Shown here: one piece after another, positions 19,520 to 36,616 of the stretch
How positions within the stretch are numbered: the first letter of the stretch is position 1
Layout: the number at the start of each line of letters is the position of its first letter
NCBI RefSeq assembly: GCF_014252355.1
Contig: NZ_CP059217.1
Coordinates: 475,273-539,272, forward strand
Source: Blattabacterium cuenoti
GTDB taxonomy: Bacteria; Bacteroidota; Bacteroidia; Flavobacteriales; Blattabacteriaceae
Direction: 5' to 3'
Length of the DNA stretch: 64,000 bases
The notes under the pieces: generated by a model
The model's input: only the letters and a program-made list of their open reading frames with translations
The model's database searches: none
What the model was told of the DNA's origin: nothing
Translations under genes and position numbers: made by a program

Positions 19520-20689
19520 ATGGCAGAAATCATATTTATGCCCAAATTAAGTGACACTATGGAAGAAGGAACTCTTGTCAAATGGAATAAAAAAATAGGT
19601 GACAAAGTGTTCGAAGGAGATATTTTAGCTGAAATTGAAACAGATAAAGCTATTCAAGATTTTGAAATTGATATTAATGGAGTGTTGCTTTATTGTGGAA
19701 TCAAAGAAGGTGAAAAAGCTCGTGTTAATGATATTTTAGCAATTATTGGACAGACTGGAGAAAATATTAGTTCTTTTATCAAACATAAAAATATTAATGA
19801 ACCAGAAAAAAAACAACCAGAAAAAAAACAACCAGAAAAAAAACAAAAAGAAAGAAAATTCATTTCTCCTTTGGCAAAAAAGATGATACAAGATAAAGGA
19901 ATAAATATTAATAATATTCAACAAGGAACAGGATATAGTGGAAGAATTGTAAAAAAAGATATTGAAGATTTTTATGAAAAAAATAGATATCATAATATGA
20001 ATATGAATCAACATATTCTTGTTTCTAATATGAGAAAAGAGATAGCTAATCATTTAACGTTGTCTAAATTTACAGCACCTCATTATTATTTATTTATTGA
20101 AATAGAAATGGACAAAATAATAAAATTAAGAAAAGAATTGAATCATACATTATCTAAAACAAATCATAAAATATCTTTTAATGATATTATTGTTAAAGCA
20201 GTATCACTTATTTTAAAAGAACATCCTTATATTAATGCTACATGGAAAGAAAAAGAAATTATTTATCATTATAATATAAATATAGGGATAGCAGTTGCTA
20301 TACAAGATGGATTAATGGTTCCAGTTATACAAAATTCCGATCAAAAATCTTTATTACAAATATCAAAAGAAATAAAAGAGAAAGTAGAACGTTCAAAATT
20401 AAGAAAAATTCAAGAAAAAGAAATCCAAAATAGTACATTTACTATTTCAAATTTAGGTATGTATGGAATAGATTATTTTACTTCCATTATTAATATTCCA
20501 AATTCTTCTATTTTGTCTGTAGGTTCTATTAAGGAACAACCTATTGTCAAATATCATAAAATAAAAATTGGAAATATAATGAAAATAACATTGTCTTGTG
20601 ATCATAGAATTATAGATGGTAATAAAGGATGTCATTTTTTACTAGATTTAAAAAAAATGTTAGAGGATCCAATCACTATTTTAGTTTAG
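19520..20689 (+). CDS. pdhC: Pyruvate dehydrogenase E2, dihydrolipoyl acetyltransferase
   Basis: E2 core of pyruvate dehydrogenase, transferring acetyl from lipoamide to CoA. The ATG at 19520 gives the family start MAEIIFMPKLSDTMEEGTL; a TTG nine bases upstream is less likely. Domains in order: one lipoyl domain (lipoylated Lys43 in EIETDKAIQDFE), a linker with three PEKKQ units (residues 95-109), an E3-binding domain (FISPLAKKMIQDKGI to GRIVKKDIEDF) and the catalytic domain ending with LSCDHRIIDGNKG. The predicted 389 residues and single lipoyl domain are short compared with two-lipoyl Bacteroidetes E2 proteins. Its end overlaps terC by 14 bases. Confidence 0.95.
   Translation: MAEIIFMPKLSDTMEEGTLVKWNKKIGDKVFEGDILAEIETDKAIQDFEIDINGVLLYCGIKEGEKARVNDILAIIGQTGENISSFIKHKNINEPEKKQPEKKQPEKKQKERKFISPLAKKMIQDKGININNIQQGTGYSGRIVKKDIEDFYEKNRYHNMNMNQHILVSNMRKEIANHLTLSKFTAPHYYLFIEIEMDKIIKLRKELNHTLSKTNHKISFNDIIVKAVSLILKEHPYINATWKEKEIIYHYNINIGIAVAIQDGLMVPVIQNSDQKSLLQISKEIKEKVERSKLRKIQEKEIQNSTFTISNLGMYGIDYFTSIINIPNSSILSVGSIKEQPIVKYHKIKIGNIMKITLSCDHRIIDGNKGCHFLLDLKKMLEDPITILV
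19802..19846 (+). repeat. Three tandem copies of a 15-base unit in pdhC
   Basis: CCAGAAAAAAAACAA occurs three times without a mismatch (19802-19816, 19817-19831, 19832-19846). Each unit contains an A8 run and encodes PEKKQ. The repeat sits exactly in the flexible linker between the lipoyl and E3-binding domains, where length change should be tolerated. Confidence 0.95.
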
Positions 20690-23757: not shown

Positions 23758-24416
23758 TTTTTTAAAAAAATTGATTTTTTTATAATTGTTATATTTTTTT
23801 TATATAAAAAATATTATCAATAATAATGTTTTTTACCATATTTATGAATATTTACGTTATGACAAACTATCAATACACTTAATGTTTTATATTTATATGA
23901 TTTAACTTAAAATAAGTTATATTTAATATTTAAACAAGAAAAGAACAAGCGTATAATAAAAAATTTTGTCAAAATCATAATATTAATTAGGAATCATACC
24001 TTTGATAATCCTTATACATACAATTAAAAATTATTCCTAATATCGATAATCATAATCTGATTTATAATTTTATAACTTATCGTATATAAAAAATTTAATT
24101 TTTTTATCCAATTTTTTTTATTTACATTCCTTAATGTAATTATTCATTAAGTAACTAATAGAAGTAGAATAAAATTTTTTATAAAAAAATATAAAATAAT
24201 ATATAATTATATAAAAAATGATAATGCTTTATAAATATGTAATATGAATTTATATAATTCAATTTTATTTTATGAAATGAACTATAATAAATCAATATTA
24301 TTTTCATACCTTCCATCGAATAAAAAAATCAATTATTATATAATAATGTTAAAACCCATAAATATGTTTTTGTTATTTATAATTGTTTTTTGTTGTAAAA
24401 ATAAAAAAATAAATCA
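23758..24416. other. 659-base intergenic region before tRNA-Phe, no gene seen
   Basis: No supported gene. Several short perfect inverted repeats occur: TAACTTA/TAAGTTA at 23903-23919 (loop 3), CTTAATG/CATTAAG at 24130-24151 (loop 8), and a distant pair ATTAGGAAT / ATTCCTAAT near 23985 and 24033. A 60-codon frame at 24244 runs into tRNA-Phe and is rejected. In free-living relatives the genes after bamA are ompH/skp-like, so this may be a decayed remnant; the sequence itself does not show it. Confidence 0.45.
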
Positions 24417-24489
24417 GGTATCTTAGCTCAGTAGGTAGAGCAAAGGACTGAAAATCCTTGTGTCCCCGGTTCGATTCCGGGAGATACCA
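24417..24489 (+). tRNA. tRNA-Phe(GAA)
   Basis: A perfect 73-base cloverleaf: acceptor GGTATCT/AGATACC, D-stem GCTC/GAGC, anticodon stem AAGGA/TCCTT with loop CTGAAAA (anticodon GAA), and T-arm CCCGG-TTCGATT-CCGGG. The discriminator is A and CCA is not encoded (CGA follows). It stands alone between the long gap and the convergent bamA end, 15 bases away. Confidence 0.97.
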
Positions 24490-24504
24490 CGATAATATTA
24501 TTTT

Positions 24505-27177
24505 TTATTCATTATTATTCTCCATTATAAAATGAATTTTCCATGTTTTATTATTTTTTTCATCTGGATATAATGGATATCCAAAATCTACACCAAATAT
24601 TCCTAATGGAATATACGAACAACGAAATCCAAATCCAATAGATTGTTTCATTTTTTTATTATATAATTGATTTGAATTTTGTGTAATCATATTTCCACCT
24701 TCTAAAAAAACATTTGCCCATAATTTATTTGATGTGTTATTAAACATATCATTAAAAATTAAATAACGCATTTCTAAAAAATATTTATTATACATTAATC
24801 CTCCTGGATTATTAAAATTTTGATTTTCTGATGCATAACCTCTTAATGGAATAAAATCAGATGGAGAAAATATTCCATATATATTTTGATGAATATCTCC
24901 CATATAAAATTTTTGAAAAGCAAATAAATCTTTTTTATTATTATAATTTCCTAAAATGCCACATTCCAATCCAGTTTTCAACACCATTTTATCAAAAATT
25001 TTTTTATATAAATAAAATAATGATTTAATTTTAAAATATTCTAACCAAGATTGATGAGAATATTCATCATTAAATATATTACTATATGGTAATGTAAATA
25101 AACCATTAATTTCCATTTTTGATCCACTTAAAGGAAATATATTTGTTAATTCTTTATTAAATTTTTTCAAAGAAATCAAATAAAATAAATTATTTAAATA
25201 TATAGGACTTTCTTCTTTATTTTTATTATTATTATTATAAATATATCTATCATAATCTATCAAAAAATCTAATTTCCAATATGGATCATGAAATGTTAAA
25301 GGTTTGCTAATTCCAATTGAATAACCTATTTTATTTAGTAATTTATTATTTGTAAGATTACAATTACGAATATTACAATTATTTTTTTCATGTAAAAGTA
25401 AAAAATCAGGATCAAAAATATTTTTAATTATTCTATTTATAAAATCTATTTTTACAAAATATGAGATATGATTTGTGTCTTTTATCCAAGGGTCAATAAA
25501 AGTCATACCATAATGTTGTACATTTTTTCCAATTTTATTATATAATAACAATTTTTGTCCATCACCTTGAGGATTTGGAAATGGATTCCATTGTTTTATA
25601 TTTAATAATTTTTTAATAGAAACATTTTTTAATAAAAAATTTAAAGATCCTAAAGAACTGTTTTTATCATAACCTTCTTCAACCATAAATTTAACAGAAT
25701 GATGATTGTCTTCAATAACTTTCCATTTTAAATCTACTAAATCATTATTATGATAAATAATTTTGGGATAGACTATCTTAAAAAGATCTAATGATTGTAA
25801 ACGTATTAAATCTTCATGAAGTTTTTTAATTGAAAGACGATCTCCTGTATTAATTTTTAATTCTCGTTGAATAACATGATTTGATGTAATTTTATTACCA
25901 GAAATATATATATTTTTAACATATACAGGATGATTTTCTTCTATATTCACCTCTAAATAAATTTTATCATCTACTATCTTTTTTTCTAAAATTAATATTT
26001 TAATCAAAAAATATCCTAAATTGAGATAATTATAAATTATACTGTTATTTATATTTTTATTTAAAATTATATTTTCTATTTCTTGTTTGTTATAAATATC
26101 TCCAGTATTATAATGTAATATTGTTTTTAAATATTTTGTATTATAAACAGTATTTCCCACAAAATTAATATTTCCTATATAATATTTTTTACCTTCTGAT
26201 ACATTAACTATTAATTCAGAATTCCCTTTATTATTTTGAATATGATTTAATGTTATTTCAATATCTCTAAATCCAAGAGATTGATATTTATATATAATAT
26301 TATTAACACCTTGATGATACAAATGATATAAATAGTTATCATTATTATTTTGATTTTGTATCATTATATTATATAATTCTTTATCAGAAAAAATTTTATT
26401 TCCATGAAAAAATATCTTTGATAAAGATATTTTTTTTCCTAAATTAACATTTACAACTAAAGAATTATTATTTTTATCTAGATCTAGATTAGTAGAAATT
26501 ACTGATACTTTAAAATATCCTTGTTTGATATAAAAATCAATAATTTCATTTTTTAATTTTTGAATAAAATCATCAGATATAATATCTGAATTATGATTCA
26601 AACAAAGAAATTTATATGTTTCTATTTCTTTAGTTACTCCTTTCAGAATAATTTTATTAAAAGATATTCTATCTTCTAATTCAAAATAGATATTAAGTTC
26701 ATTTTTATTATTTTTTTTATTTTTAATATTTTCTTTATAAATAGAAATATTTTTAAATAAATTACTATTCCATAATCTATGAATTGCATTATCTATTGTC
26801 TTTCCTTCTTGAAGATTTAAACAATCGCCTTTATGTATATTGGATATTTGTGATATTTTATAAATACTATATTGTGTTTTTCCTTTAATAAAAATATTTT
26901 TTATCACAAATACATTATTTTTATCTATGTTGTTAATTTCTATTTGTTGATCTTCCTCTTTATCATTTTTATCTTTATCTTCATCTTCATTTTTATCTTC
27001 ATCTTCATCTTCATCTTCATCTTCATCTTCATCTTCATCTTCATCTCTCTTTTCTTGATTTATTTCATTAATTTTATTAATGGTTATAGTTTTTGTTTTT
27101 ATATATGATATATTTATTAATAAAAACATACAAAATAAAAATAATATTTTCTTGAAACTATTATGCAATTTTTCCAA
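24505..27177 (-). CDS. bamA: Outer membrane protein assembly factor BamA (Omp85)
   Basis: Inserts beta-barrel proteins into the outer membrane. The 890-residue protein starts with a signal peptide (ILFLFCMFLLINISYIKTKT), then an unusual acidic Asp-Glu tract (residues 46-61 and beyond), then successive POTRA domains (IKNIFIKGKTQYSIYKI, FNKIILKGVTKEI, LSKIFFHGNKIFSDKEL, IGNINFVGNTVYNTKYL, VKNIYISGNKITSNHVI), and a C-terminal barrel with the loop-6-like LRGYASENQ. The C-terminus ends FIMENNNE rather than the classical aromatic residue. Its start overlaps the end of uppS by 17 bases. Confidence 0.93.
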   Translation of the reverse strand: MEKLHNSFKKILFLFCMFLLINISYIKTKTITINKINEINQEKRDEDEDEDEDEDEDEDEDKNEDEDKDKNDKEEDQQIEINNIDKNNVFVIKNIFIKGKTQYSIYKISQISNIHKGDCLNLQEGKTIDNAIHRLWNSNLFKNISIYKENIKNKKNNKNELNIYFELEDRISFNKIILKGVTKEIETYKFLCLNHNSDIISDDFIQKLKNEIIDFYIKQGYFKVSVISTNLDLDKNNNSLVVNVNLGKKISLSKIFFHGNKIFSDKELYNIMIQNQNNNDNYLYHLYHQGVNNIIYKYQSLGFRDIEITLNHIQNNKGNSELIVNVSEGKKYYIGNINFVGNTVYNTKYLKTILHYNTGDIYNKQEIENIILNKNINNSIIYNYLNLGYFLIKILILEKKIVDDKIYLEVNIEENHPVYVKNIYISGNKITSNHVIQRELKINTGDRLSIKKLHEDLIRLQSLDLFKIVYPKIIYHNNDLVDLKWKVIEDNHHSVKFMVEEGYDKNSSLGSLNFLLKNVSIKKLLNIKQWNPFPNPQGDGQKLLLYNKIGKNVQHYGMTFIDPWIKDTNHISYFVKIDFINRIIKNIFDPDFLLLHEKNNCNIRNCNLTNNKLLNKIGYSIGISKPLTFHDPYWKLDFLIDYDRYIYNNNNKNKEESPIYLNNLFYLISLKKFNKELTNIFPLSGSKMEINGLFTLPYSNIFNDEYSHQSWLEYFKIKSLFYLYKKIFDKMVLKTGLECGILGNYNNKKDLFAFQKFYMGDIHQNIYGIFSPSDFIPLRGYASENQNFNNPGGLMYNKYFLEMRYLIFNDMFNNTSNKLWANVFLEGGNMITQNSNQLYNKKMKQSIGFGFRCSYIPLGIFGVDFGYPLYPDEKNNKTWKIHFIMENNNE
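26995..27042 (-). repeat. Eight tandem hexanucleotides (GATGAA-type) in bamA
   Basis: On the plus strand ATCTTC is repeated eight times without error; on the coding strand this is read as alternating Asp and Glu codons. More degenerate copies flank it (about 26967-26994 and 27043-27048). It sits between the signal peptide and the first POTRA domain. The unit is a multiple of three, so copy changes keep the frame. Confidence 0.95.

Positions 27178-35027: not shown

Positions 35028-36616
<1,589 letters not shown>

Follow-up and report, generated by a model that had tools for sequence, protein, structure and literature searches.

The window that we analysed is a stretch of 64,000 nt from the 567,420-bp genome of Blattabacterium cuenoti (the window genome, hereafter G000), a cockroach symbiont undergoing genome reduction. 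On its minus strand lies bamA, the product of which carries an acidic repeat ahead of its first POTRA domain. The gene and its parts are arranged as follows:

24505-27177, minus strand: bamA, 890 aa, with a TTG start that overlaps the end of uppS; called from its open reading frame with POTRA (PF07244) and Omp85 (PF01103) matches
27088-27177, minus strand: hydrophobic N-terminus, a probable signal peptide of about residues 1-30, read off the translation
26914-27087, minus strand: linker from the hydrophobic N-terminus to POTRA1, with a net charge of -20 over 71 aa when counted from where the hydrophobic core ends
26998-27045, minus strand: GATGAA repeated perfectly eight times in frame 0 of bamA, encoding (Asp-Glu)8 at residues 45-60
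26950-26997, minus strand: eight more six-base units towards POTRA1, seven of them altered and one intact
25714-26913, minus strand: POTRA domains, about residues 89-488, comprising four stretches matched by PF07244, with strands and helices in the model from residue 89 on

The window protein combines POTRA repeats with an Omp85 barrel, the composition of BamA (Omp85), and the profile matches to both are clear (PF07244, E 1.2e-30; PF01103, E 2.4e-14). Judging from the hydrophobicity of its N-terminus, residues 1 to about 30 are probably a signal peptide. In the structure model, which is poor in the barrel and has a mean pLDDT of 58.9, residues 46-85 fall below a pLDDT of 50, POTRA1 reaches about 85, and from residue 89 onwards the strands and helices follow a POTRA-like order. 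The first-pass annotation had named the gene bamA and set the tract ahead of POTRA1, and this reading is borne out by the two profile matches and by the position of the array, which precedes POTRA1 in the stretch with pLDDT below 50. Reading the bamA translation by eye, we found no in-frame start codon between the acidic tract and POTRA1, and translation initiating downstream of the tract was rejected on that ground. The 747 bases 3' of bamA (23758-24504) lack a start-to-stop frame longer than 60 aa, and within them a tRNA-Phe gene occupies 24417-24490 on the plus strand.

The eight perfect hexanucleotide units that had been reported from the letters alone are indeed present in frame 0 of bamA and encode the peptide DEDEDEDEDEDEDEDE. 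Tandem Repeats Finder (TRF) delimits the array as 26963-27046 (period 6, 14 copies, 91% matches) with a score of 133, the highest among the 30 TRF rows in the window. The pattern (GATGAA)4 occurs at five overlapping positions in the window, each of them within the bamA array, and chance can be excluded as the origin of the array because the same pattern has no match in 100 dinucleotide-preserving shuffles. With more copies than chance would give and a period of 6, divisible by 3, in an open frame, the array is an in-frame microsatellite. Degenerate flanking copies had been described, and they occur on one side only: the POTRA-side units read, in order, GATAAA, AATGAA, GATGAA, GATAAA, GATAAA, AATGAT, AAAGAG and GAAGAT, the last ones doubtful as copies, and they differ from GATGAA by 11 changes (six G>A, two A>T, two T>A and one A>G), whereas the unit preceding the perfect array is AAGAGA (KR) and is not a GATGAA copy. 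In stop-to-stop frames of at least 200 aa in the window, GAT makes up 770 of the 820 Asp codons and GAA 977 of the 1033 Glu codons. Under this codon usage all 16 codons would match with a p of about 0.39, and codon identity was therefore rejected as proof of recent expansion; the strict alternation of D and E is a better sign of a 6-bp slippage unit than perfect codon identity.

We searched 68 genomes of the family, one per species, for BamA and obtained matches in 55, of which 48 fall among the 49 members of the genus; N-termini were read in all 55. Linkers differ between related genomes, ranging over the 48 genus members from 21 to 119 aa in length and from -20 to +13 in net charge. Outside the pair formed by the window genome and its sister genome (G013), the linkers of the other 46 average 32 aa (sd 12, range 21-82) with a mean charge of +0.5 (sd 2.7, range -7 to +13). 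The window genome stands at 71 aa and -20, and the sister, in which a 24-bp unit of other sequence (NEIDDERK) occupies the same place, at 119 aa and -11. A (DE) tract before POTRA1 occurs in the window genome only and is absent from all 47 remaining genus members that have a BamA match, while non-homologous repeats sit in the linkers of G013 (24 bp, 7.2 copies), G003 (21 bp, 7.8 copies), G033 (42 bp, 2.7 copies) and G024 (30 bp, 2 copies). By eye, the repeat units of these five genomes are unrelated, although an acidic seed may be common to the two sisters. Since unrelated repeats recur at the linker, the site tolerates the growth of quite different sequences.

The same picture emerges when TRF rows of any period with a score of at least 100 are counted over the 48 bamA frames: there are seven such rows in five genomes, all in the linker, which contributes 5.0 kb of the scanned sequence, and none in the remaining 118 kb. 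Seven family members outside the genus were excluded from this count, as was G022, the genus member without a BamA match. Just below that score lie one array outside the linker in G032 (97) and one inside it in G014 (95), and with the cut at 90, again at any period, linker rows are found in six genomes and one row elsewhere (G032). A binomial p of 1.4e-6 for a hot spot in the linker is not relied on, as it counts overlapping TRF rows and takes only periods that are multiples of 3. On a quick BamA tree of 53 rows, from which G054 and G055 were left out and in which G023, with a weak linker array (score 55), was unlabelled, the five genomes with linker repeats need at least four label changes on well supported branches. 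In the same tree the branch leading to the pair is very long, at 1.1 changes per site, which fits relaxed selection or a higher mutation rate. A comparison of dN/dS on both sides of the array, put forward in the first-pass annotation, was computed between G000 and G013 and gave dN 0.16 and dS 0.54 before the array, 0.09 and 0.13 in POTRA1, 0.16 and 0.26 in POTRA2-5, 0.17 and 0.24 in the barrel, and 0.54 and 0.55 in the linker, where non-homologous repeats are aligned; these figures are not trusted, because strong A/T codon bias keeps dS low.

G022 has neither a BamA match by sequence nor an Omp85 profile match, and the stretch examined there (L169, G022:C1:494000-501000) contains uppS and no bamA frame among frames of at least 150 aa. 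G014 lacks an Omp85 profile match yet has a bamA homologue by sequence, so that the profile test is not decisive.

Repeat growth is not specific to BamA: G000 and G013 also have repeats in ribosomal protein S18, a PBP1A-type protein, the pyruvate dehydrogenase (PDH) E2 homologue and a probable outer-membrane protein. Arrays outside bamA, in the window and in further stretches of the pair, include the following:

35729-35763, minus strand: the second perfect hexanucleotide array of the window, encoding (Asn-Asp)n within an ATP synthase beta loop; period 6, 5.8 copies, 100%
19800-19858, plus strand: array with a 15-bp unit (QPEKK) in the PDH E2 homologue, within its linker; period 15, 3.9 copies, 93%
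L177:10397-11560 (G000): S18 frame with repeat, 388 aa
L183:10799-11815 (G013): S18 frame with repeat, 339 aa
L178:4591-4894 (G000): PBP1A repeats, 11 copies
L184:5293-5408 (G013): PBP1A repeats, 4 copies

The arrays in ATP synthase beta and PDH E2 are events of the same kind as the bamA array. That in ATP synthase beta is in frame, in a loop that precedes the conserved DVLFFIDN strand, and this loop has a different expansion in G013 and is shorter in 28 other genomes among the 30 of 49 matches listed. The PDH E2 linker that follows the lipoyl domain holds a 7-aa unit, NEEKNEL, seven times over in G032 (L108:14577-14722) and other repeats in G000 and G013. The PBP1A-type transglycosylase/transpeptidase, identified in G000, has a C-terminal tail of 27-bp repeats; what appears by eye to be the same protein has an acidic tail in G025. 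The probable outer-membrane protein with an array in both sisters has a weak profile match (21.5 bits against a cut-off of 28.7). All five identified gene sites that hold arrays with a score of at least 90 in the G000 sample carry arrays in G013.

The S18 repeat is more surprising than the BamA tract. It lies inside the N-terminal tail and consists of a 36-bp (12-aa) unit in 22 copies in G000 and a 33-bp (11-aa) unit in 20 copies in G013, in a comparison of all 49 genomes in which the S18 frames of the 47 other genus members are 101-141 aa long (median 105). The G000 gene is flanked by genes that, by eye, resemble those for S6 and L9. The arrays of the two sisters can be aligned and differ by about one residue per unit, which is a sign of array homogenisation after their split. 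AlphaFold2 folds the repeat as a confident beta-solenoid, from which we conclude nothing, because AlphaFold2 is reported to give repeat proteins such folds, confident but unrealistic (PMC11795689).

As a long in-frame array we counted any TRF row with a score of at least 90 and a period that is a multiple of 3 within a stop-to-stop frame of at least 150 aa on either strand. There are six in 184 kb of G000, seven in 180 kb of G013, none in 180 kb of G017 and between zero and two in 60 kb of each of ten other genomes. Five of the six in G000 and six of the seven in G013 are in identified genes; one G000 row qualifies only through a frame on the opposite strand next to a run of N, and one G013 row falls in an unidentified frame of 190 aa. 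Of the six extra stretches, one was picked because S18 was known to be there, and without it the counts are five in 164 kb (G000) and five in 160 kb (G013). For the extra stretches there is a single control genome, with positions set by proportion, and G003 and G033 were picked after their bamA repeats were known. A genome-wide excess of arrays in the pair over the genus is likely on this small and partly chosen sample, although in the bamA-centred stretch alone G032 and G014 equal the pair, with two long in-frame arrays in each of G000, G013, G032 and G014.

On this evidence the bamA tract is quite probably a hexanucleotide microsatellite that arose by in-frame replication slippage or unequal exchange in a disordered and weakly constrained linker. 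A short linker rich in D, E, N and K would have supplied the GATGAA seed, and copies would then be gained and lost in six-base steps that keep the reading frame, so that such gain and loss would leave an important gene unbroken. On the POTRA side the units would degenerate, chiefly through G-to-A substitutions that turn Asp into Asn and Glu into Lys, in line with the AT-richness of the genome, and acidity would be a by-product of whichever unit happened to expand. The strict D-E alternation, the six-base steps, the changed edge units, the swap of units between the sisters and the recurrence of repeats in a tolerant place all agree with slippage or unequal exchange acting under weak selection, and the linker before POTRA1 bears no sign of a conserved functional element. 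Neutral slippage was one of the possibilities raised by the first-pass annotation, and it gains support from the wide variation in length and sequence between genomes and from the unrelated repeats at the same place. We infer the slippage mechanism, the seed, the neutrality and the absence of function alike.

MutS and RecA are matched in 49 of 49 genomes, as is the ATPase family that includes MutL; we infer MutL itself, because this family profile also matches other ATPases. Loss of repair was rejected as the cause on the strength of these matches, which cover the repair genes searched. Bacterial MutS handles loops of up to about 4 bases, and loops of at least 6 bases would escape it, so that finding MutS in these genomes does not speak against slippage in six-base steps.

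Selection could alternatively have maintained the length or disorder of tails at fixed sites in the pair while their units turned over by slippage, which we regard as unlikely. We retain this reading because the same five gene sites, in BamA, PDH E2, the probable outer-membrane protein, S18 and PBP1A, are occupied by arrays in each of the sisters, their units differing in length or sequence. These shared sites, together with long and net negative linkers in both sisters (-20 and -11), make selection for long tails possible, and such tails would perhaps buffer crowding or weak interactions in a cell with basic, fast-evolving proteins. Shared sites are, however, also expected from inheritance with turnover. 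In S18, PBP1A and E2 the units still look related between the sisters, the array hosts belong to different compartments, and the S18 frames of the 47 other genomes are 101-141 aa long.

The first-pass annotation had also suggested that the tract might be a spacer or might bind basic partners, and in its fullest form this proposal has an acidic tail that would bind unfolded clients or the adjoining SurA/PpiD-like PPIase and aid delivery to POTRA1; we consider it very unlikely. Proteins of the window are basic (the 45 stop-to-stop frames of at least 200 aa have a median charge of +4.7 per 100 aa), the neighbouring SurA/PpiD-like PPIase has a net charge of +66, and the linker of the sister is likewise net negative. 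The F. johnsoniae BAM structure places the C-terminal domain of BamP between POTRA1 and BamD, and partners therefore do lie near POTRA1 (PMC12611786). Basicity, however, is common to most window proteins and thus singles out no partner, and most of the changes in the flanking units remove charge. Acidity is not kept in relatives: the 46 others average +0.5, the most negative being -7 and one reaching +13, and only the sister is clearly negative. Over the 48 genomes, linker charge and POTRA charge are uncorrelated (Spearman -0.18, p 0.21). Neither the spacer nor the binding of basic clients or PpiD thus has comparative support, although a tail with this charge may still exert weak effects.

An artefact of assembly or base calling in the copy number is scarcely credible: tandem arrays are prone to collapse in short-read assembly, but this array keeps the reading frame and has graded units on its flank, a different one occupies the site in G013, and such an error could alter copy number and would hardly create the tract.

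Like other coding microsatellites and minisatellites, the bamA tract has a short perfect unit, a multiple of three bases long, in a disordered segment, with imperfect edge copies and a length that varies between species. What differs here is that several conserved proteins of one long-branched obligate symbiont pair have such repeats and that a ribosomal protein holds arrays of 20-22 copies. Phase-variable contingency repeats of bacterial surface genes are also slippage-prone repeats near the start of a gene, and the bamA tract shares this feature with them, but its 6-base unit cannot switch frame and its host is an assembly factor, not an antigen. Phase variation was rejected, as a six-base unit inside the coding frame shifts neither the frame nor the promoter spacing. 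POTRA domains and an Omp85 barrel are common to this BamA and to the F. johnsoniae BAM, for which the available text of the report (PMC12611786) mentions no (DE) tract, whereas here one is found in G000 alone among the 48 compared. A literature search at the level of search results, together with parts of PMC4567559, PMC9603385 and PMC12611786, returned no published report of these repeats.

The bamA tract is a real feature of an ordinary kind, an in-frame microsatellite in a tolerant linker, and it looks like tolerated slippage and not a new device. An outer-membrane assembly protein tolerates the growth of a charged linker, in a symbiont pair that has in-frame repeats in several conserved genes and one ribosomal protein at about 3-4 times its usual length, and the lineage of this pair offers a natural test case for the way in which proteins are reshaped by slippage and weak selection as genomes shrink. 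The lesson for BamA itself is modest, and the repeats elsewhere in conserved genes of the pair, most of all those in S18, merit separate attention. The longest S18 outside the pair, that of G009 at 141 aa (L156), carries a long run of lysines in this tail, which is another low-complexity expansion at this site.
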